DNA of 40,713 nucleotides from Candidatus Agathobaculum pullistercoris (GTDB taxonomy: Bacteria > Bacillota > Clostridia > Oscillospirales > Butyricicoccaceae), in the NCBI GenBank assembly GCA_019114345.1, contig DXFS01000043.1, forward strand, positions 1 to 40,713. Reading direction: 5' to 3'. Made by a program: the position numbers and the translations under genes. Every line of letters starts with the position of its first letter. The first letter of the stretch is position 1. The notes under the pieces are model-generated. The model saw nothing but the letters and a program-made list of their open reading frames with translations, was not told the origin of the DNA and did no database searches. Below, piece after piece: positions 6,845 through 14,756 of this stretch.

Positions 6845-6873
6845 TTGACTTTGACGAATCACAAGAGTATTAT
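6845..6873 (+). promoter_or_regulatory. Promoter of the larA-like operon
   Basis: TTGACT (6845-6850), a 17-bp spacer, TATTAT (6868-6873). About 100 bp upstream (6765-6843) is very AT-rich against a GC-rich background and could act as an UP element. The leader to the ATG at 7018 is about 138 nt and contains an inverted repeat GCCGCC...GGCGGC near 6909-6941. Nothing else is seen between 6651 and 7017. Confidence 0.78.
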
Positions 6874-6898
6874 GTATACATACGACAGAATACATAAT
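6868..6898 (+). promoter_or_regulatory. Probable GntR-family operator over the larA -10 and start site
   Basis: A perfect 12-bp palindrome TATGTATACATA (6871-6882) overlaps the -10. A 9-bp inverted repeat ATTATGTAT (6869-6877) / ATACATAAT (6890-6898) spans the predicted start. The core GTATAC and the element CAGAATACA (6886-6894) both recur in front of the gntR gene (12136-12150). FCD-type GntR proteins often bind GTATAC-centred palindromes. Repression of larA by that GntR protein is inferred. Confidence 0.6.
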
Positions 6899-7017
6899 GC
6901 AAAACATGCCGCCATACCCGGTGGATATCAAAACGGCGGCTTTGACCGGCAGTTTTCTGCGTATGCAGCGTGCGGCCAGCTATCCGCACACCGCGCAGAT
7001 GAAAGGAATGAGTATCT

Positions 7018-8295
7018 ATGAAAACATTCTCAATCCCCTATTACACCTCGTCGCTGGAGCTGCATGTGGACGAGAAAAACCTCAAGGCAGAGCTGAACTC
7101 CCGCACGGATACCTATGACGCGGGTAAGAGCGAAGCGGATCTGGTGCGCGACGCACTGGCAAACCCGATCGGCACGCCGCGCCTGTCCGAACTGGCCAAG
7201 GGCAAGGACAAGATTGTGCTTGTCACAAGCGACCACACCCGCGCCGTGCCGAGCAAGCTGACCCTGCCGATCCTGCTCGAGGAGATCCGCTCGGGCAACC
7301 CGGATGCGGATATCACCATCCTGATCGCCACCGGCCTGCACCGTGCGACGACCGAGGAAGAGCAGCGCCGCATGTTCGGCGACAACATTGTGGACAATGA
7401 AAAGATCGTGGTCAACAAGGCGTTTGAGGACGATGACTTCGAGCGCGTCTGCGAGCTGCCGTCGGGCGCAGAGCTGTGGGTCAACAAGCTCGCGCTGCAC
7501 TGCGACCTGCTGGTGACCGAGGGCTTCATCGAGCCGCACTTCTTCGCTGGCTTCTCGGGCGGCCGCAAGAGCATCCTGCCCGGCATCTGCAACGCGGTCA
7601 CGGTCAACGAAAACCACTCCTATAAGGCGATTGCCAGCCCGTATTCCACTACGGGCGTACTGGAGCATAACCCCATCCACGAGGATATGGTGTACGCCGC
7701 GCGCGCGGTCAACGTGCAGTTTATCATGAACGTGGCGCTTAACGCGGAGAAAAAAGTCATTGCGGCGTTTGCCGGCGATTTGGAGCAGGCGCATGAAAAA
7801 GGCGTGGAATTCGTCCGCGGCCTGGCGCAGTGCCCGAGCGTGGAGGGCGATATCGTCATCACCTCGAACGGCGGCTATCCGCTCGACCAGAACCTGTACC
7901 AGAGCCCCAAGGCGGTCGCAACCGCGGAGGCCTGCTGCCGCGAGGGCGGCGTGATCATCATGTGCGCCTCCTGCTGCGACGGCATGGGCGGCACGCATTT
8001 TGAAAAGCTGATCGTCAAGGGCACAGTGGATGAGATCGACGATTACCTGTCCAAGATCCCGCCCAAGGAGACCATCCCCGAGATGTGGTGCGCGCAGATC
8101 TTCGCCCGCATCCTGAAAAAGCACAAGGTCATCCTGGTGACCACCTATCTGGATCATGAGCTGGTCCGCAAGGCCAATATGATCCCCGCGTCATCGCCGG
8201 ACGAGGCGCTTGAGATGGCGTATGAGATCATGGGGCGCGACGCCGAAGTGGTCGTTATCCCGGACGGCGTGGCGGTTCTTGCGGTCAAGGAATAA
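7018..8295 (+). CDS. LarA-family nickel-pincer (NPN) dependent racemase/epimerase
   Basis: The family catalyses hydride-transfer racemisation or epimerisation at the alpha carbon of 2-hydroxy acids using a nickel-pincer nucleotide bound to a Lys. This 425-residue protein keeps the lactate racemase residues at the same numbers as I recall for L. plantarum LarA: Asp72 and Arg75 (SDHTR), His108 (TGLH), His174 (EPHFF), Lys184 (GGRK, cofactor attachment), His200 (ENHSYK), Gln295 and Lys298 (YQSPK). It should therefore be active. It is first in an operon with a split UxaA-type dehydratase, 12 bases before the SAF gene, which suggests a sugar acid or other hydroxy acid rather than lactate. The NPN synthesis genes larB, larC and larE are not in the window. 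The substrate is unknown. Confidence 0.85.
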   Translation: MKTFSIPYYTSSLELHVDEKNLKAELNSRTDTYDAGKSEADLVRDALANPIGTPRLSELAKGKDKIVLVTSDHTRAVPSKLTLPILLEEIRSGNPDADITILIATGLHRATTEEEQRRMFGDNIVDNEKIVVNKAFEDDDFERVCELPSGAELWVNKLALHCDLLVTEGFIEPHFFAGFSGGRKSILPGICNAVTVNENHSYKAIASPYSTTGVLEHNPIHEDMVYAARAVNVQFIMNVALNAEKKVIAAFAGDLEQAHEKGVEFVRGLAQCPSVEGDIVITSNGGYPLDQNLYQSPKAVATAEACCREGGVIIMCASCCDGMGGTHFEKLIVKGTVDEIDDYLSKIPPKETIPEMWCAQIFARILKKHKVILVTTYLDHELVRKANMIPASSPDEALEMAYEIMGRDAEVVVIPDGVAVLAVKE

Positions 8296-8307
8296 GGAGG
8301 AAGCGTT

Positions 8308-8619
8308 ATGGAACTTAAGCTGGCGCTCAAGGTAGACGATCTCGACAACGTGGCGACCATCTTTGCCAACGGCATCGTGGACGGCGCCAAGGTCGAGGTG
8401 CGGGACAAGAAGGGCAACATGGAGGAGATCACCGTACACGGGGACGTGCCCTACGGCCATAAGATCGCACTGTGCGATATCAAAAAGGGCGAGCACATCA
8501 TGAAGTACGGCGAAAGCATCGGTGCGGCAAGCAGCGATATCAAAAAGGGCGACTATGTACATATTCATAATCTGGAAGCCCTGCGCGGCCGCGGCGATCT
8601 GGAAGGAGGAAATCAGTGA
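8308..8619 (+). CDS. SAF-domain small subunit of a UxaA-family dehydratase
   Basis: The 103-residue protein is a single SAF domain, shown by PYGHKIALCDIKKGEHIMKY and GESIGAASSDIKKGDYVHIHN. In altronate/galactarate dehydratases (UxaA, GarD) this domain is the N-terminus of one long chain; here it is a separate subunit, as in sulfolactate sulfo-lyase SuyA. AAGGAGG lies before the ATG. Its stop overlaps the ATG of the next gene by one base (TGATG), so the two subunits are probably made together. It would help bind substrate or metal for dehydration of a 2,3-dihydroxy acid. Substrate not determined. Confidence 0.85.
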   Translation: MELKLALKVDDLDNVATIFANGIVDGAKVEVRDKKGNMEEITVHGDVPYGHKIALCDIKKGEHIMKYGESIGAASSDIKKGDYVHIHNLEALRGRGDLEGGNQ

Positions 8620-9800
8620 TGAGCAGCTACACGTTCCAGGGCTACCGGCGTGCAAACGGCAAATTCGGCGCCCGCAATCTGGTTGCCGTTATCCCGAGCG
8701 TTATCTGCGCAAACGACGTCGGTCAGGCGATCTGCCGTCAGGTGCAGGGCACGATCGGCTATTTCCATCATCAGGGCTGCTGCCAGCTGCCGCTTGACCT
8801 CAAGCGCGTGACCGACGTGCTGTCCAATCTGGGCCAGAGCCCGAACGTAGGCGCGGCGCTGGTCGTCAGCCTGGGCTGCGAGGGCACTGATCATGAGCGC
8901 ATCGTCGAGGAGATCCGCGCATCCGGCAAGCCGGTCGAGATCATCCGTATCCAGGAGTTGGGCGGCACCTCACGCGCCATCCAGGCGGGCATCGACGCGG
9001 CGCAGAAGCTGGTGCAGGAGATTTCCGCGCAGCAGCGCGAGCCGGTGGATGTTTCCAATGTCGTCATGTCGATCAAGTGCGGCGCATCGGACACCACTTC
9101 CGGCATGGCCTCCAACGCGGTGATCGGCTATGTGGCGGATAAGCTGGTCGATCTGGGCGGCACGGTCATTTTCGGCGAGACGACCGAGTTCCTCGGCGGC
9201 GAGCATATCCTCGCGCGCCGCGCGGTCGGCGGCGAGAACGGCCCAGTCGGGCAGAAGATTTATGAGATCGTGGACCGCATGGAAAAACGCGCCAAGTCGA
9301 TCGGCGAGGACATGCGCGGCGGACAGCCGACGCCCGGCAATATCGCGGGCGGCCTGTCCAGCATTGAGGAAAAGAGCCTGGGTGCGATCGTCAAGTCCGG
9401 CCACCGTCCGATCCAGGGCGTGCTGGAATACACCGAGCGCATCGACGATAAGAAGGGCCTGTGGATCAAGGACGCGCCCGGCCGCGAGCCCGAGATCCTG
9501 ACCGGTATGGCCGCTACCGGCGCGCAGGTCATGCTGTTCTCGACCGGGCGCGGCGCCCCGCAGGGCTTCCCGTCCATGCCGGTCGTCAAGATCTGCGGCA
9601 ATCCCAATACCTATGAGCGCATGCAGCACGATATGGATCTGAACGCCGGCCGCGTCATCACCGGCGAAAAGACCATCGAAGAGGTCGGCGAGGAAGCGTT
9701 TGAGCTGATGCTGCGCGTGCTCTCCGGGCAAATGACCAAGAACGAGGCGCTGGGCTATTACGGCTCCATGGATATTTTCTGCCTTGGCCCGGTGATCTGA
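8619..9800 (+). CDS. UxaA-family dehydratase, large subunit
   Basis: This 393-residue protein matches the large catalytic domain shared by altronate dehydratase UxaA, galactarate dehydratase GarD and sulfolactate sulfo-lyase SuyB: GYRRANGKFGARN at the start, VSLGCEGTD, SIKCGASDTTSGM and FSTGRGAPQGFP. It lacks the SAF domain, which is supplied by the preceding gene. These enzymes are metal-dependent lyases acting on 2,3-substituted acids. The ATG at 8619 was preferred over GTG 8616 because it gives normal spacing to AAGGAGG (8604-8610). With a LarA-type epimerase before it and a GntP permease after it, an aldonate substrate is the simplest inference; 3-sulfolactate remains possible. Confidence 0.85.
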   Translation: MSSYTFQGYRRANGKFGARNLVAVIPSVICANDVGQAICRQVQGTIGYFHHQGCCQLPLDLKRVTDVLSNLGQSPNVGAALVVSLGCEGTDHERIVEEIRASGKPVEIIRIQELGGTSRAIQAGIDAAQKLVQEISAQQREPVDVSNVVMSIKCGASDTTSGMASNAVIGYVADKLVDLGGTVIFGETTEFLGGEHILARRAVGGENGPVGQKIYEIVDRMEKRAKSIGEDMRGGQPTPGNIAGGLSSIEEKSLGAIVKSGHRPIQGVLEYTERIDDKKGLWIKDAPGREPEILTGMAATGAQVMLFSTGRGAPQGFPSMPVVKICGNPNTYERMQHDMDLNAGRVITGEKTIEEVGEEAFELMLRVLSGQMTKNEALGYYGSMDIFCLGPVI

Positions 9801-9932
9801 GTCGGTTATACTTCCTAAAAACAGCCGGCAGGCCAGCCGGAGGGGAAGGGGGCGTATGAATCGCAGATTATGGTACAAATGAAGGAAAAACGCAGTGAGC
9901 CTGATATGGTTCTATAGGGGGTAAAATTTGTT
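9801..9932 (+). other. Spacer between the dehydratase and gntP genes, with two tiny overlapping ORFs
   Basis: A short hairpin (CCGGC 9825-9829 / GCCGG 9836-9840) has no T-run. A strong Shine-Dalgarno (GGAGGGGAAGGGGG, ending about 9852) precedes an 8-codon ORF at 9856-9882. A 12-codon ORF at 9879-9917 overlaps it by ATGA, and its stop TAG runs into the G-run used by the GntP gene. These could be leader peptides, or chance. No sigma-A promoter is clear here. Confidence 0.3.
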
Positions 9933-11381
9933 ATGATGCTTCATCCTGTAGTAGCTATGTTGATCGGCATCGTCGTCATGATGGTGCTCATCATCTTCAC
10001 GAAAATGCATGCATTCCCGTCGCTGATCATTTCGGCGATCCTGATTGCGGTTCTGGCTATGCCGTTTGGCGATGTGACTACACTGACACAATGCGTTTCA
10101 ACCGTAACCGCCGGCTTCGGCAGCACGATGACCAGTATCGGCGTTGTCATCGGCTTCGGCTGTATCATGGGTATCTTCCTTGAGAAGAGCGGCGCGGCAA
10201 AGTGCATGGCGCTGACCATCCTCAAAGCAGTCGGCGTAAAGAACTGCGATATCGTGCTCGGCCTGACCGGCTGGGTGGTTTCCATCCCTGTTTTCTGTGA
10301 TTCCGGCTTTGTCATCCTGTCCTCCCTGGCCAAGGAGTTCTCCCGTCTGACCAAGAAGTCCATGGTCGGCCTGGGCGGCATCCTCGGCATGGGCCTGTAC
10401 ATCACGCACTTCATGGTGCCGCCGACCCCCGGCCCGCTGGCTGTTGTCGGCACCTTCCAGGAAAACGGCCTGGGCGTTGACCTCGGCATGTTCATCATCT
10501 GCGGCATGGCGATTTCGGTCCCGCTGTTCATCTTTGCGGTTCCGCTGTTCCGCCACTTCGGCAAGAAGTACCCGGACTTTGTCGTTCCGTATGAGATCGA
10601 CCGCTCCAAGTATTCCGAGGCGCAGCTCAAGGTCCTTGACCGCATTAACGAGAAATATCAGAAGCATGAAGACCTGGTCACTGAGGACTTTGCAGAGTTG
10701 CTGGCTGCGGAAAAGCTGCCGAGCGCGTTCCTGTCCTTCCTGACCCTGCTGGTCCCAATTGTGCTGATCTTCGCCAACACGATCGTCGGCCAGATCACCT
10801 CGCTGGACGGCACGGCGGTTGCCAATGTGATCGAATTCCTCGGCCAGCCGGTTATCGCGCTGTTCATCGCGCTGGTGATGGGCGCGTTCCTGCTCTGCAA
10901 GGATTATGACAAGAAGACCTGTGTCGACCTGATGCAGCAGGCCTGCTGCGACGCCGGCCCGATCGCCTTCATCACCGCGGGCGGCGGCGCACTCGGCGCG
11001 GTCATCAATGCGACCGGCGCAGCATCCATCATGGCGGACTGGATCGTTCAGACCGGTATCCCGGCTATTCTGGTTCCGATTATCATCGGCGTTATCATGC
11101 GTTTCCCGCAGGGCTCCGGTACGACCGCAATGATCACCGGTTCCGCGATCGTCGCCCCGATGATTGCAGCTGGTTTGGAAGTCAACCCGTATCTCGCAGC
11201 GCTGGCGCTCTGCCTTGCAACTATGTGCCCGAGCTACCTGAACGATTCTTACTTCCACGTTGTCACCAACTTCTCCGGCATGGACATCAAGACCAGCCTC
11301 AAAACCTGGTCGATCGGTTCGATCCTGGTGCCTGCCTTTGGTTCGTGCATTTTCATCATCCTGTCGTTCTTTATCCACTAA
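9933..11381 (+). CDS. GntP-family organic-acid:H+ symporter
   Basis: The 482-residue protein has about 12 hydrophobic segments and resembles gluconate permeases: MLHPVVAMLIGIVVMM at the start, GFGSTMTSIGVVIGFG, LEKSGAAKCMA, TGWVVSIPVFCDSGFVIL, THFMVPPTPGPLAVVG and FPQGSGTTAMITGSAI. GntP proteins import gluconate, glycerate, fructuronate or related hydroxy acids with protons. It follows the dehydratase genes and points at a gntR gene across a shared terminator. It probably brings in the substrate of the LarA-type enzyme. ATG at 9933 was used; 9936 is equally possible. Confidence 0.88.
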   Translation: MMLHPVVAMLIGIVVMMVLIIFTKMHAFPSLIISAILIAVLAMPFGDVTTLTQCVSTVTAGFGSTMTSIGVVIGFGCIMGIFLEKSGAAKCMALTILKAVGVKNCDIVLGLTGWVVSIPVFCDSGFVILSSLAKEFSRLTKKSMVGLGGILGMGLYITHFMVPPTPGPLAVVGTFQENGLGVDLGMFIICGMAISVPLFIFAVPLFRHFGKKYPDFVVPYEIDRSKYSEAQLKVLDRINEKYQKHEDLVTEDFAELLAAEKLPSAFLSFLTLLVPIVLIFANTIVGQITSLDGTAVANVIEFLGQPVIALFIALVMGAFLLCKDYDKKTCVDLMQQACCDAGPIAFITAGGGALGAVINATGAASIMADWIVQTGIPAILVPIIIGVIMRFPQGSGTTAMITGSAIVAPMIAAGLEVNPYLAALALCLATMCPSYLNDSYFHVVTNFSGMDIKTSLKTWSIGSILVPAFGSCIFIILSFFIH

Positions 11382-11396
11382 GAAGAGAGAGGAAAA

Positions 11397-11430
11397 GCAA
11401 AAGGCTGCCGCGTCAGCGGCAGCCTTTTGC
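11397..11430. terminator. Bidirectional terminator between gntP and gntR
   Basis: A perfect 15-bp stem (11397-11411 with 11416-11430) closes a GTCA loop. The outer A/T pairs provide a T-run on either strand, fitting the convergent genes. Confidence 0.88.
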
Positions 11431-11439
11431 CATATGGAC

Positions 11440-12105
11440 TTACTGTTTCTGCTTTTTTTCAAGCTGTTCCTTGATGCATTCGCGCGCGAGTTCAAGATGA
11501 CGGTGGTTGACCTGCTCGGCCAGCTCGGTCTTCCCTTCGATCAGCGCGTGGATGATCTGCCGGTGCTCCCCGAGCGATTCCTCAAACCGCTGGTGCACCG
11601 AAAGTGAGAGCACACGGAACTGCTGGTTCATCGAGCCGACCCGGTAATAGGTCGAACTGACGATGCTGTTGTCGCCCAGCATGACGATCTCGTTGTGCAG
11701 CTGCTCATCCGCGCGGGTGTATTCCTCAAGCTCGCCCGCCCGGAAGGTGGTTTCCATCCGGTCGAGGATATCCAGAAGCTTTTCGATGCGGGCAGAGGTC
11801 AGGTTGGTGCGGCTGCGGCGGATGGCGTATCCCTCCAGCATGACGCGCATGTCAAAGATCTCATCAATATCCTTGCAGGTAAATTCCTTTACGAAAGTAC
11901 CCCGGTTGGGGATATTGATGACCAACCCGTCCGAAACCAGGCGGCGCAGCGATTCGCGCACGGGACTGCGGCTGACGCCAAGTTGCTCGCACAGTTCCAC
12001 CTCCTGCATCCAGAAGCCGGGAGGATACTGCCCTTCGCAGATATTTTTCCGCAGAATGGAATAAACCTGGTCTGCGATTGTTTGGATCGGCCTTGATTTC
12101 GGCAT
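11440..12105 (-). CDS. GntR-family regulator, FadR/FCD subfamily
   Basis: This 221-residue transcription factor has an N-terminal winged helix (about residues 8-72: LCEQLGVSRSPVRESLRRL, then LVINIPNRGTFV) and a C-terminal FCD ligand domain with candidate metal-binding residues in RADEQLHNEI, GEHRQIIHAL and VNHRHLEL. FCD regulators usually sense a hydroxy or sugar acid. TCAGGAGGAG precedes the ATG. It lies between the GntP permease (convergent) and the glycerate kinase (divergent), and the same GTATAC and CAGAATACA elements lie before it and before the larA operon. It is therefore the likely regulator of the whole module and of itself. Confidence 0.9.
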   Translation of the reverse strand: MPKSRPIQTIADQVYSILRKNICEGQYPPGFWMQEVELCEQLGVSRSPVRESLRRLVSDGLVINIPNRGTFVKEFTCKDIDEIFDMRVMLEGYAIRRSRTNLTSARIEKLLDILDRMETTFRAGELEEYTRADEQLHNEIVMLGDNSIVSSTYYRVGSMNQQFRVLSLSVHQRFEESLGEHRQIIHALIEGKTELAEQVNHRHLELARECIKEQLEKKQKQ

Positions 12106-12135
12106 ATTTTCTCCTCCTGATATTGTGGGAAAACC

Positions 12136-12193
12136 CAGAATACAGTATACTTAAATATATTCACCATTATACCCGATCTTTTACACTTTGCAA
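12136..12193 (-). promoter_or_regulatory. Promoter and probable operator of the gntR gene
   Basis: On the minus strand: TTGCAA (12188-12193), a 16-bp spacer, TATAAT (12166-12171). Just downstream of the start lie GTATAC (12145-12150) and CAGAATACA (12136-12144, plus-strand sense), matching the elements at the larA promoter. This suggests self-repression. No clear plus-strand promoter for the divergent kinase gene was found in this gap. Confidence 0.6.
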
Positions 12194-12247
12194 GCTGTCA
12201 ATGGTAATTCAAATCGATATGGATATAAAGGAAAGGAAGCGAACAAG

Positions 12248-13489
12248 ATGACCATTCGCGAGGATGCCAGGCGTATTATTGATACCTCGATCCGTGCCGT
12301 GCTGCCGGACGCGGCCGTACAGCGCGCGCTGGAGCGCTTTACCCCGCCCGCGGGCAGGCTGGTTCTGGTCGCCCTCGGCAAAGCCGCATGGCAGATGGCC
12401 GCGGCGGCCGCGGACTGCCTGGGGGACGCGGTCTCGGACGGCGTTGTGATCACCAAATACGGACACGCAAAAGGGGATATCCCGCATGTGCGCATCCGCG
12501 AGGCCGGGCACCCGGTGCCCGATCAGAATTCGTTTGACGCCACCGCAGAGGCGGTCTCGCTCGTCAAGCCGCTTGGCGCGCAGGACGGTGTGCTGCTGCT
12601 GATCTCGGGCGGCGGCTCGGCGCTGTTTGAAAAGCCGCTGTGTACGCCGGACGAGCTGACCGGCCTGACCGGACAGCTGCTGCGCTGCGGGGCGGATATT
12701 GTGGAAATGAACACGCTGCGCAAGCGCGTCAGCGCGGTCAAAGGCGGACGGTTCGCGCAGCTGTGCGCGCCGGCAAAGGTATTTTCCATCGTCCTGTCCG
12801 ATATCGTAGGAGACCCGCTGGACATGATCGCTTCCGGCCCGGCCTATCCGGACAGATCGACCGCCGCGGATGCACATGCAGTCGTGGACAAATACAGCCT
12901 GCAGCTGTCGCCGGATATGCTCGCCCTGCTCGACAGACCCACACCGGCCGCGCTGGACAATGTCGAGACCCACATCACCGGCTCGGTGCGCGAGCTGTGT
13001 TCTGCCGCCGCGGCAGAGTGCCGCGCGCTCGGCTACGAAACGCACATCCTGACCGCCAGCCTGGGCTGCGAGGCGCGCGAGGCGGGCAGTTTTCTTGCCT
13101 CGGTTGCGCAGTACCATGCGGATACGGAAAAGCCGCTGGCATTCATTGCAGGCGGCGAGACCGTGGTGCATATCACCGGCACGGGCAAGGGCGGCCGCAA
13201 CCAGGAGCTGGCGCTTTCGGCTGCACGCGGCATCGCGGGCATGGACAATGCGCTCATCTTCTCGGTCGGCTCGGACGGCACGGACGGCCCGACCGACGCG
13301 GCGGGCGGCCTGGCCGACGGCGGCACCTGCGCCGCGCTGGAGGCAAAGGGCATTTCAATTGACCGCGTGCTGGCGGACAACGATGCGTACCATGCGCTGC
13401 AGCAGGCGGATGGATTGATTATCACCGGCCCGACCGGCACAAATGTCAACGATGCAGCGGTGCTGCTGCTGCGCCCGCAGACAAACTGA
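12248..13489 (+). CDS. Glycerate 2-kinase, GckA/MOFRL family
   Basis: This class phosphorylates D-glycerate to 2-phosphoglycerate with ATP. The 413-residue protein has LISGGGSALFEKP (ATP-binding region), NTLRKRVSAVKGG, LSDIVGDPLDMIASGPAYPD and the MOFRL domain with GTGKGGRNQELAL and GSDGTDGPTDAAGG. The ATG at 12248 was chosen because AAAGGAAAGG precedes it; the upstream in-frame TTG at 12188 overlaps the gntR promoter. It is divergent from gntR. In sugar-acid pathways it would collect glycerate made from glyceraldehyde or tartronate semialdehyde after aldol cleavage; no aldolase or reductase is present here. Confidence 0.9.
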   Translation: MTIREDARRIIDTSIRAVLPDAAVQRALERFTPPAGRLVLVALGKAAWQMAAAAADCLGDAVSDGVVITKYGHAKGDIPHVRIREAGHPVPDQNSFDATAEAVSLVKPLGAQDGVLLLISGGGSALFEKPLCTPDELTGLTGQLLRCGADIVEMNTLRKRVSAVKGGRFAQLCAPAKVFSIVLSDIVGDPLDMIASGPAYPDRSTAADAHAVVDKYSLQLSPDMLALLDRPTPAALDNVETHITGSVRELCSAAAAECRALGYETHILTASLGCEAREAGSFLASVAQYHADTEKPLAFIAGGETVVHITGTGKGGRNQELALSAARGIAGMDNALIFSVGSDGTDGPTDAAGGLADGGTCAALEAKGISIDRVLADNDAYHALQQADGLIITGPTGTNVNDAAVLLLRPQTN

Positions 13490-13630: not shown

Positions 13631-14188
13631 TCAGGTCTGCGCAGCCTCGGTCTTTTTGCGCGAAAAGCGCACGATACCGGTCTTGTCAAGCGCAACCATA
13701 AGCGCCGGGATGAACACCAGCTGCAGGATGATGCCGGGGATCGCGGTCAGCAGCGCGCCGGACAGGAACAGCTGCCACGTAAATGGTTCGCCGGCTACGC
13801 CGGTCATCAGCACTCGTACCACGCCCCATACCACGCGGCCCGCAACCATCGCGGCGAGCAGCGAGCGGTAAAGCGAAAAAATGCACTTCCAGCGCGAGCG
13901 GCTGTACAGCAGGCCGATGACAAGGCCGTAGGTCAGCAGCTCAAAGGACATGGCGACCGCGGTCAGCAGCGGCGGCATGCCGAACAGAACATAGCGTAGC
14001 ATGGGCAGCACCAGGCCCACAACGGCACCGTACTGCCAGCCGCAGAGCAGGCCGCAGAGCAGCACCGGCAGGTGCATGGGCAGCAGCATGCTGCCGATCT
14101 GGGGGATCTGGCCGGTGAAGAACGGGAGTACCAGGCCGATGGCCAGGAACATGGCGGCCAGAACGAGGTTTTTGGTGTTTTGTTTCAT
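13631..14188 (-). CDS. ECF transporter S component, substrate unknown
   Basis: The 185-residue membrane protein has about six helices and the ECF S-component pattern: LVLAAMFLAIGLVLPFFTGQ, then MLLPMHLPVLLCGLLCGW, GAVVGLVLPMLRYVLFGMPP and MSFELLTYGLVIGLLY. S components bind a vitamin or metal and need the shared EcfAA'T module, which is not here. The ATG at 14188 was preferred over 14197 because GAGGAG is 10 bases from it but only one base from 14197. Upstream on the same strand are a two-hairpin leader, a terminator and the DUF3842 gene. I could not assign the vitamin from sequence. Confidence 0.85.
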   Translation of the reverse strand: MKQNTKNLVLAAMFLAIGLVLPFFTGQIPQIGSMLLPMHLPVLLCGLLCGWQYGAVVGLVLPMLRYVLFGMPPLLTAVAMSFELLTYGLVIGLLYSRSRWKCIFSLYRSLLAAMVAGRVVWGVVRVLMTGVAGEPFTWQLFLSGALLTAIPGIILQLVFIPALMVALDKTGIVRFSRKKTEAAQT

Positions 14189-14214
14189 GTGTGTCATTCT
14201 CCTCAAAATAAATT

Positions 14215-14252
14215 GCAGCGTCCTTCTGGAGCCGCACCGCCTTCGTGGCGGT
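14215..14252 (-). promoter_or_regulatory. Structured leader before the ECF S-component gene
   Basis: Read on the minus strand, ACCGCC/GGCGGT (14247-14252 with 14236-14241, loop ACGAA) is followed at once by GCGGC-TCC/GGA-C-GCTGC (14228-14235 with 14215-14223, loop AGAA). Two adjacent hairpins before an importer gene could be part of a ligand-sensing leader, but they match no riboswitch class I know. Confidence 0.35.
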
Positions 14253-14267
14253 ATTTTCAGGAGATGG

Positions 14268-14299
14268 GGAAAGAAAACAGCCCCCTTCTGGCGGGCTGT
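14268..14299 (-). terminator. Terminator after the DUF3842 gene
   Basis: On the minus strand, ACAGCCC (14293-14299) pairs with GGGCTGT (14277-14283), followed by TTTCTTT. It separates the DUF3842 gene from the ECF gene, or attenuates read-through into it. Confidence 0.7.
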
Positions 14300-14321
14300 C
14301 AAAGCAGGAAGCGCAGCGGGC

Positions 14322-14756
14322 CTATTCCGACAGCAGGCGCACCGCAGTATCAGCTGCGCGGTGCAGGTATTCGTCCAGCCGGAGCCCTTCCGCACCGGCG
14401 ACATGGATGCCGCAGGTGGAGGACGGGATGAGTACCTTTTGCGCACGGGCGCCCGAAACCGCGACCGACATCCCGGGCGATACCTCGCCCATGATGCCGT
14501 TGGCCATGATGATGCCCACCGGGCCGACGATCAGGTCGGCCTGCGCGGCGTTGTGGCAGACGGCGTTCTCCCCCGTTGCCCCGCGCGCGGCCCCGGCCTT
14601 GAGCATGGCGTTTGTAGCGAGCGAATTGGTGCCGACGCAGCACAGCTCGCAGTCCGCCGGCAGACGCGACGCAAGCAGCTTGACCAGCTGGACGCCGATG
14701 CCGCCCCCCTGCCCGTCGATCACCAGGACAAGGCGCGCGTTTGAATGGGTACCCAT
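14322..14756 (-). CDS. DUF3842 family protein
   Basis: The 144-residue protein matches the DUF3842 family of uncharacterised clostridial proteins: VIDGQGGGIGVQLVKLL at the N-terminus (a Rossmann-like glycine-rich loop), CVGTNSLATNAMLKAGA, ARGATGENAV, VGPVGIIMAN and KVLIPSSTC. No function is established that I know of. The glycine-rich loop suggests nucleotide or dinucleotide binding, which is inference. It has its own promoter, GGAGG before the ATG at 14756, and lies upstream of the ECF S component on the same strand, so a link to that transporter's substrate is possible. Confidence 0.8.
   Translation of the reverse strand: MGTHSNARLVLVIDGQGGGIGVQLVKLLASRLPADCELCCVGTNSLATNAMLKAGAARGATGENAVCHNAAQADLIVGPVGIIMANGIMGEVSPGMSVAVSGARAQKVLIPSSTCGIHVAGAEGLRLDEYLHRAADTAVRLLSE

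Follow-up and report, generated by a model that had tools for sequence, protein, structure and literature searches.

What does a LarA-type racemase do when its gene stands directly ahead of the two halves of a UxaA-type dehydratase? This question is raised by a locus of Candidatus Agathobaculum pullistercoris (contig DXFS01000043.1 of assembly GCA_019114345.1), whose 40,713 nucleotides, hereafter the window, correspond to contig C7 of a genome of 2.06 Mb in 102 contigs that is 77% complete. A sequence-only reading of the window had described a six-gene module at 6845–13489, namely larA, separate genes for the SAF-domain small subunit and the large subunit of a UxaA/GarD-type dehydratase, a GntP permease, an FCD-type GntR regulator and a glycerate 2-kinase. 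All six are intact open reading frames at the place given, between 7018 and 13489, and Pfam searches confirmed each identity. On balance, the module probably serves the catabolism of a small 2-hydroxy acid, with LarA as the epimerase feeding the dehydratase and with its cofactor coming from outside. All of the families are known; what is new is their pairing, and the cofactor poses a problem.

Pairing of LarA with a split dehydratase

The three leading genes lie on the forward strand, larA at 7018–8295, the SAF gene at 8308–8619 and the large-subunit gene at 8616–9800, and the SAF stop codon overlaps an ATG of the large subunit at 8619 (TGATG, 8617–8621). A scan of genome contigs for larA–SAF–uxaA clusters, as proposed in the sequence-only reading, revealed a conserved triplet. 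Among the best 80 LarA loci, which are not a census, the SAF and large-subunit genes follow larA in 54; the other 26 comprise L122 (SAF, then the contig end), L087 (contig end), L108, L120, L125, L133 and 20 loci of less than 58% identity. Within this set the triplet spans Bacillota, Coriobacteria-type Actinomycetota and single metagenome-assembled genomes (MAGs) titled Desulfovibrio, Planctomycetaceae and Dehalococcoidia.

The larA product contains the Lar_N and LarA_C domains (212 and 183 bits in Pfam) and passes the cut-off of NF033504, the NCBIfam equivalog for nickel-dependent lactate racemase (594 bits against 460). From these, its PDB matches and its residues, it is assigned as a LarA-type 2-hydroxyacid racemase/epimerase, a P297/E356/C359 variant of the LAR group. 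Asp72, Arg75, His108, His174, Lys184, His200 and Lys298 (LarA1 numbering) are all present, and Phe175, Phe176 and Trp358 are kept; the earlier statement that every catalytic residue is retained is correct. It shares with the LAR enzymes LarA1, LarAH42, LarAH43 and LarAH51 the fold family, the catalytic histidine pair, the residues binding the nickel-pincer nucleotide (NPN) and the pocket formed by Phe175, Phe176 and Trp358. It differs in its operon with a split dehydratase, in a genome where no NPN synthesis genes were found, and in three substitutions relative to LarA1, Val297 to Pro, Asp356 to Glu and Thr359 to Cys. Position 359 is Glu or Gln in the LAR group (Thr in LarA1), and among characterised enzymes Cys occurs there only in LarAH42. 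Among the matches listed, the closest LarA genes are those of a congeneric genome (G017, 96% identity) and Agathobaculum massiliense (94%).

Pro297 and Cys359 separate a clade. Reduction of all fetched LarA loci gave 145 distinct proteins, 70 of which have Pro297 and Cys359 at an identity of at least 58%, and the seven-residue NPN-binding and catalytic set is complete in 68 of them (exceptions, L137, partial, and L117, partial with Tyr at His174). When adjacency was counted only in LarA genes with at least 1.4 kb downstream, the SAF and large-subunit genes adjoined 62 of 65 P297/C359 genes (exceptions, L120, L180 and L215) and 1 of 67 others (L232, with Ala359). In these 67, residue 359 is Glu, Gln or Thr in 57, Asn in five, Cys in three, Ala in one and Lys in one. 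L237, L238 and L240, distant LarA proteins with Pro297, Asp356 and Cys359, have no SAF/UxaA pair; thus the signature marks a clade, not pairing alone. In its own numbering the cysteine is residue 358 in most triplet LarA proteins, 357 in L103, L120 and L128, and 359 in the three distant proteins, and a link to LarAH42 by residue numbering (357) was dropped, as numbering does not settle it. The triplet gives this LarA clade a conserved and testable partner, for which the P297/C359 signature and the operator-like palindrome described below may serve as markers. As a separate observation, LarA proteins with Asn359 and no SAF/UxaA pair downstream occur at L010/L170 (genome G027), L108 and L125, and profile searches of the G027 and L125 genomes returned no LarB, LarC or LarE over cut-off.

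The wider neighbourhood is less constant. Neighbour genes were called by codon usage. Homologues of 18 protein queries were counted within 7.5 kb of the triplet at 48 triplet loci with enough flank and at 21 non-triplet LarA loci. Relatives of the GntR, GntP and kinase proteins encoded in the window lie near 24, 22 and 13 of the 48 and near none of the 21, counts that are inflated by relatedness, the loci being kin and not independent. It is one branch that has the GntP permease, the FCD GntR regulator and the glycerate 2-kinase, and other triplet loci have other neighbours. The six-gene co-occurrence expected earlier thus holds for the triplet and not for a fixed six-gene unit.

A second module in the same genome (contig C95, L168:9211–13478) combines a group-22 LarA (NF052515, 521 bits against a cut-off of 400), a GntP permease, a SAF protein and a UxaA large subunit with all four UxaA/GarD cysteines. 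A LarA that aligns with this group-22 protein is also encoded on a Sporomusa termitida plasmid, beside SAF, UxaA, TctABC and MR_MLE genes. In all three cases a LarA-type isomerase is paired with a split UxaA; however, the latter two are of a different LarA group, in which a distant alignment places Glu opposite Lys184, and the Sporomusa plasmid adds MR_MLE and TctABC. The pairing of two different LarA groups with a split UxaA makes a functional coupling more likely. In the available parts of the literature on lactate racemase, NPN biosynthesis and LarA homologues (PMC7583248, PMC11770544, PMC12611868 and PMC11796402, without supplements, of which Table S1 of PMC7583248 might list UxaA beside LarA), no report of the pairing was found.

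The small subunit matches the SAF domain PF08666 (22.8 bits, cut-off 21), and alignments pair it with the N-terminal part of E. coli UxaA as well as with a SuyA reference. The large subunit contains GD_AH_second and GD_AH_C (PF04295 and PF20629; 118 and 289 bits) and matches GarD 6u7l in a PDB search (E 1.5e-58). It falls below the cut-off of the galactarate dehydratase equivalog TIGR03248 (239 bits against 731) and is thus not GarD itself. An AlphaFold model of this subunit alone had a mean pLDDT of 36 and was not used. PMC6336799 gives cysteines 134, 173, 208 and 276 as conserved across the superfamily, sulfolactate sulfo-lyase excepted. A Paracoccus denitrificans relative has cysteines 133, 172, 207 and 275, with the same spacing, in the columns of Cys31, Cys55, Cys88 and Cys155 of the window protein, and E. 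coli UxaA also carries all four in the alignment. In contrast, a Paracoccus versutus SuyB-like reference, so named only from its neighbours (a sulfate exporter family protein and a sulfite oxidase), keeps one of the four and lacks three.

Judged by these retained cysteines, the two window subunits form a dehydratase-type pair that shares only its layout with SuyAB, a small SAF subunit and a large subunit; neither a sulfate exporter nor a sulfite oxidase is among the six genes. The SuyAB parallel drawn earlier thus stands for the split layout and fails for the relationship, and the sulfo-lyase reading was set aside on account of the cysteines. With UxaA and GarD the pair has in common both Pfam domains, the four cysteines and the SAF motifs, whereas its two separate subunits, its place next to larA and a presumably smaller substrate set it apart. 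Two side observations concern this dehydratase. In a Desulfovibrio MAG, a TctA-type permease gene and the triplet are preceded by a second SAF and UxaA-like pair, in which three of the four cysteines are missing (L115:2112–3600). In Pseudoflavonifractor Marseille-P3106 (L110:11611–12172) the large-subunit gene matches only in fragments and much of its interior is absent, and larA and SAF match at full length.

The structure of the operon enables us to propose a putative route. The acid would be imported by GntP, after which LarA would invert its C2 centre. The SAF and large-subunit pair, presumably iron-dependent and acting on one C2 configuration only, would then remove water across C2–C3 to yield a 2-keto-3-deoxy acid. 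As LarA and the split UxaA form one conserved unit, the earlier proposal that LarA inverts C2 for the dehydratase is the best reading, and a C2 epimerase feeding a stereospecific dehydratase is a well supported one.

LarA and its cofactor genes

LarA would still need NPN. The sequence-only reading had looked for larB, larC and larE in the same genome and had named their absence as a refutation of its proposal. We searched 60 genomes of the relatives set and the genomes of 50 of the best 80 loci with LarC and LarE profiles, and 59 genomes with the LarB profile; most genomes surveyed are MAGs. None of the three proteins was found over cut-off in the window genome (G000, 77% complete) or in G003, G005, G012, G014 and G017, of which G012 is A. 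massiliense, estimated as 100% complete in two contigs. On this point the earlier proposal is contradicted, and nickel dependence is therefore not simply to be assumed in this species.

The same gap recurs among relatives. The 50 include 39 triplet genomes. LarB, LarC and LarE are all present in 23 of them (in L112 LarC is partial and below cut-off), and 12 returned none of the three over cut-off, namely L077 (A. massiliense), L078, L079, L082, L088, L089, L099, L100, L103, L107, L113 and L130, with L107 titled a complete genome. LarC alone was found in L094, L101, L106 and L134; no LarB or LarE over cut-off lies near it within the 10–13 kb stretches examined (L208–L211), which, by these profiles, hold a partial NPN pathway. 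Weak matches to the LarB model (43–55 bits against a cut-off of 175) occur in six of the 16 incomplete genomes (L088, L089, L099, L094, L101 and L106) and probably represent PurE-like proteins. In a class-wide check of 391 same-class genomes at least 95% complete, besides that of the window, 74 encode a LarA at E ≤ 1e-60. Six of the nine with a LarA of this clade (at least 60% identity) lack LarC, as do 15 of the 65 others (Fisher p 0.013); thus a LarA unaccompanied by LarC is no rarity, and it is commoner in this clade.

In a quickly built tree of 47 LarA sequences, which has SH-aLRT support only and three long branches, the state without LarB, LarC and LarE needs eight changes, at least three of them forced by starred branches, with gain and loss not distinguishable. 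larA is nevertheless under strong constraint in lineages lacking LarB, LarC and LarE. In five pairs of the window and close relatives of this kind, its ratio of nonsynonymous to synonymous changes (dN/dS) is 0.03–0.07, values that are rough given synonymous differences of 0.43–0.59, and it ranks first or second in constraint among the genes compared.

Such species must obtain NPN elsewhere, make it by another route or use LarA differently. Given that LarB, LarC and LarE were not found in this species and several relatives, the probable source of NPN, or of a late precursor, is uptake from neighbouring gut bacteria. The converse case, LarB, LarC and LarE without LarA, is reported in an mBio paper; no report of LarA without them was found in the available literature on NPN biosynthesis and LarA homologues, supplements excluded, and a weak search for salvage or cross-feeding found nothing on nickel-pincer. 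LarA is kept in near-complete genomes in which NPN genes were not detected, which makes cofactor exchange, or another NPN route, testable in cultured gut species.

Promoter-like site, palindromes and the outer genes

Upstream of larA, a promoter-like site with an operator-like palindrome spans 6845–6882 on the forward strand. Its boxes are TTGACT (6845–6850) and TATTAT (6868–6873), separated by 17 nucleotides; five such sites were observed in the region with 3.3 expected, so the promoter match alone is weak. The palindrome ATGTATACAT (6872–6881) overlaps the -10 box. Its core TGTATACA occurs once in the window, against an expected 0.12. In the P297/C359 clade, 33 of 67 loci carry it in the 300 bp ahead of larA, with 0.4 expected from shuffles. 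Only one of 75 other loci has it (L023, the split-off half of an Agathobaculum larA).

A GTATAC core accompanies the kinase gene in nine of 16 kinase loci, within 260 bp upstream or just inside. It is shared with a divergent larA in L081, L082, L083 and L086, is the kinase gene's own and apart from that of larA in L087 and L090, falls in the gntR–kinase gap in L077 and the window, and lies inside the kinase gene in L096. The window copy (12145–12150, between gntR and the kinase gene) is weak evidence, as GTATAC occurs nine times in the window with 2.4 expected.

The GntP-family carboxylate permease is encoded at 9933–11381 on the forward strand. It contains the GntP_permease domain (PF02447, 296 bits) and stays under the gluconate cut-off of TIGR00791 (241 bits against 293). 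A strong, terminator-like hairpin (11396–11431) separates it from the convergent gntR (11440–12105, reverse strand), whose product has GntR and FCD domains (PF00392 and PF07729; 66 and 82 bits). This regulator is the probable repressor of the module, and it would act at the ATGTATACAT operator over the larA -10 box. The glycerate 2-kinase of the DUF4147/MOFRL type (12188–13489, forward strand, likely ATG start at 12248) exceeds the Pfam cut-offs for both domains (253 and 125 bits). Its best solved relative is the Thermotoga maritima glycerate kinase 2b8n (415 bits), and it remains under the cut-offs of the NCBIfam glycerate 2-kinase equivalogs (227 against 550 and 203 against 670).

Substrate, rival explanations and flanking genes

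Which acid enters the module? The lactate-racemase-group pocket leads us to expect one with three to four carbons, and glycerate is our leading candidate, if a tentative one. LAR-group enzymes racemise lactate, glycerate and 2-hydroxybutyrate; LarAH43 (Gln359) has a slight preference for glycerate, whereas every acid tried is a slow substrate for LarAH42 (Cys), according to PMC11770544. In one relative, L247 (the Lachnospiraceae MAG of L141), a tartronate-semialdehyde reductase is encoded between gntP and gntR (NF008592, 424 bits against a cut-off of 397; TIGR01505, 382 against 341). Together with the kinase and the palindromes upstream of it, this reductase points to glycerate in one branch, an assignment that these gene contexts support. 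The earlier proposal that glycerate leaves via 2-phosphoglycerate fits this branch.

Glycerate would be racemised and then dehydrated to pyruvate, and in this branch D-glycerate would also be phosphorylated by the kinase to 2-phosphoglycerate. As dehydration of glycerate would give pyruvate directly, no aldolase would be needed, and the earlier remark that aldolase and dehydrogenase are missing holds for the six genes. In the E. coli galactarate/glucarate route (GarP, GarD, GarL, GarR and GarK), a dehydratase, a permease and a glycerate 2-kinase are likewise found, with the permease and kinase belonging to other families than those of the window, and the GarR-type reductase recurs in the L247 relative. 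In contrast, the window module has a LarA epimerase and no aldolase among its six genes. It is possible, though unlikely, that LarA and the split UxaA are a dedicated glycerate racemase and glycerate dehydratase (yielding pyruvate and water), the first natural pair of the kind, working on NPN from other gut bacteria; NPN would then be shared like a vitamin, its synthesis lost several times and its user kept. A specific glycerate dehydratase is wanted in cell-free chemistry, and a 2020 paper states that an enzyme dehydrating D-glycerate specifically with high activity was not yet described (PMC6982167).

Several observations weigh against a glycerate module with a working LarA. We are aware of no activity measurement within the triplet clade. 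Just 13 of the 48 triplet loci have the kinase nearby, and the other contexts are diverse: MR_MLE with TRAP or TctABC transporters, D-2-hydroxyacid dehydrogenases, PatB-like C–S lyases with RidA, Cys/Met PLP (pyridoxal phosphate) enzymes, a DUF1537 kinase with PdxA, and fumarase with malic enzyme and PrpD. The core TGTATACA is missing from 34 of the 67 larA loci of the clade, and at seven of the 16 kinase loci GTATAC is absent upstream of the kinase gene. The LarE model falls short of full sensitivity, as Corynebacterium glutamicum in the control set matches LarB and LarC with no LarE over cut-off. In Candidatus Agathobaculum merdipullorum (G014; L117 and L009), LarA is partial at a contig end with Tyr at His174 and gntP is in two pieces, which may reflect decay or assembly error. 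Finally, LarAH42 of Enterocloster asparagiformis, with Cys at the Thr359 position and possibly of this clade, prefers other acids (glycerate 12, lactate 200 and 2-hydroxybutyrate 610 per M per s; PMC11770544).

The diverse contexts bear on two rivals that keep the coupling of an upstream LarA and a dehydratase and change the substrate. A four-carbon or larger sugar acid such as threonate or erythronate, with glycerate arising only further down the pathway, is conceivable though doubtful. At L248 (genome G843) the triplet adjoins a DUF1537 kinase, PdxA, another gene of the GntP kind and a regulator of the DeoR type, the kinase having D-threonate kinase as its best model (239 bits, under the cut-off of 450); MR_MLE proteins, with galactonate dehydratase as best model under cut-off, lie near six of 48 triplet loci and one of 21 others; and UxaA/GarD relatives use aldonates and aldarates (PMC6336799). 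However, LarA retains the small-pocket residues Phe175, Phe176 and Trp358, 4-deoxytetronates are slow for LAR enzymes (PMC11770544), and among the 18 protein queries no enzyme family exceeds a count of 13 in the 48 triplet loci, aldolases not being searched by profile. Models of other LarA functions gave no better fit: that for hexonate epimerase scored 34 bits (cut-off 500), and those of the malate racemases LarAH5 and LarAH6 stayed under cut-off. We regard a sulfur substrate as improbable, with LarA racemising sulfolactate or mercaptolactate and the UxaA pair freeing sulfite or sulfide like SuyAB. The split layout, the PatB-type proteins of L094, L095, L098 and L103 (that of L098 scoring 384 bits, where the PatB model requires 340), RidA in L094, L095 and L103 and the Cys/Met PLP enzymes of L130 and L132 agree with it, and 2-hydroxybutyrate, favoured by the Cys-bearing LarAH42, may resemble mercaptolactate in shape. 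Yet the window large subunit has all four cysteines where the SuyB reference has one (the rule of PMC6336799), the six genes include no sulfite-handling gene, and the L094 protein is under the PatB cut-off (245 against 340).

The remaining rivals dissolve the coupling. A lactate racemase of the ordinary kind, next to a dehydratase that has nothing to do with it, would agree with the NF033504 match, but the genes stay adjacent across Bacillota and Actinomycetota and also in one Desulfovibrio and one Planctomycetaceae MAG, and P297/C359 separates the clade, Cys359 occurring in three of the 67 other LarA genes; we consider this explanation very improbable. It is also unlikely that, in species without LarB, LarC and LarE, LarA is no longer an NPN racemase (an apo-protein, decaying or moonlighting) and that only the dehydratase and kinase act. 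The 12 triplet genomes with none of these proteins over cut-off and the His174-to-Tyr change in L117 would suit it, whereas the strong constraint on larA and the identity of its NPN-contact residues to those of relatives bearing LarB, LarC and LarE argue against it.

Two further protein families flank the module. A family of about 595 residues lies beside it in L098, L104 and L122, with no Pfam match in L122 and L104 and no NCBIfam match in L122. An ECF transporter S component and a DUF3842 protein adjoin the cluster in the window (13631–14756); as a putative cofactor importer they were set aside, since among the best 80 loci they lie beside the cluster, the window aside, only in L079, L117 and L123. 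These occurrences are in Agathobaculum and also in the distant Sedimentibacter saalensis.

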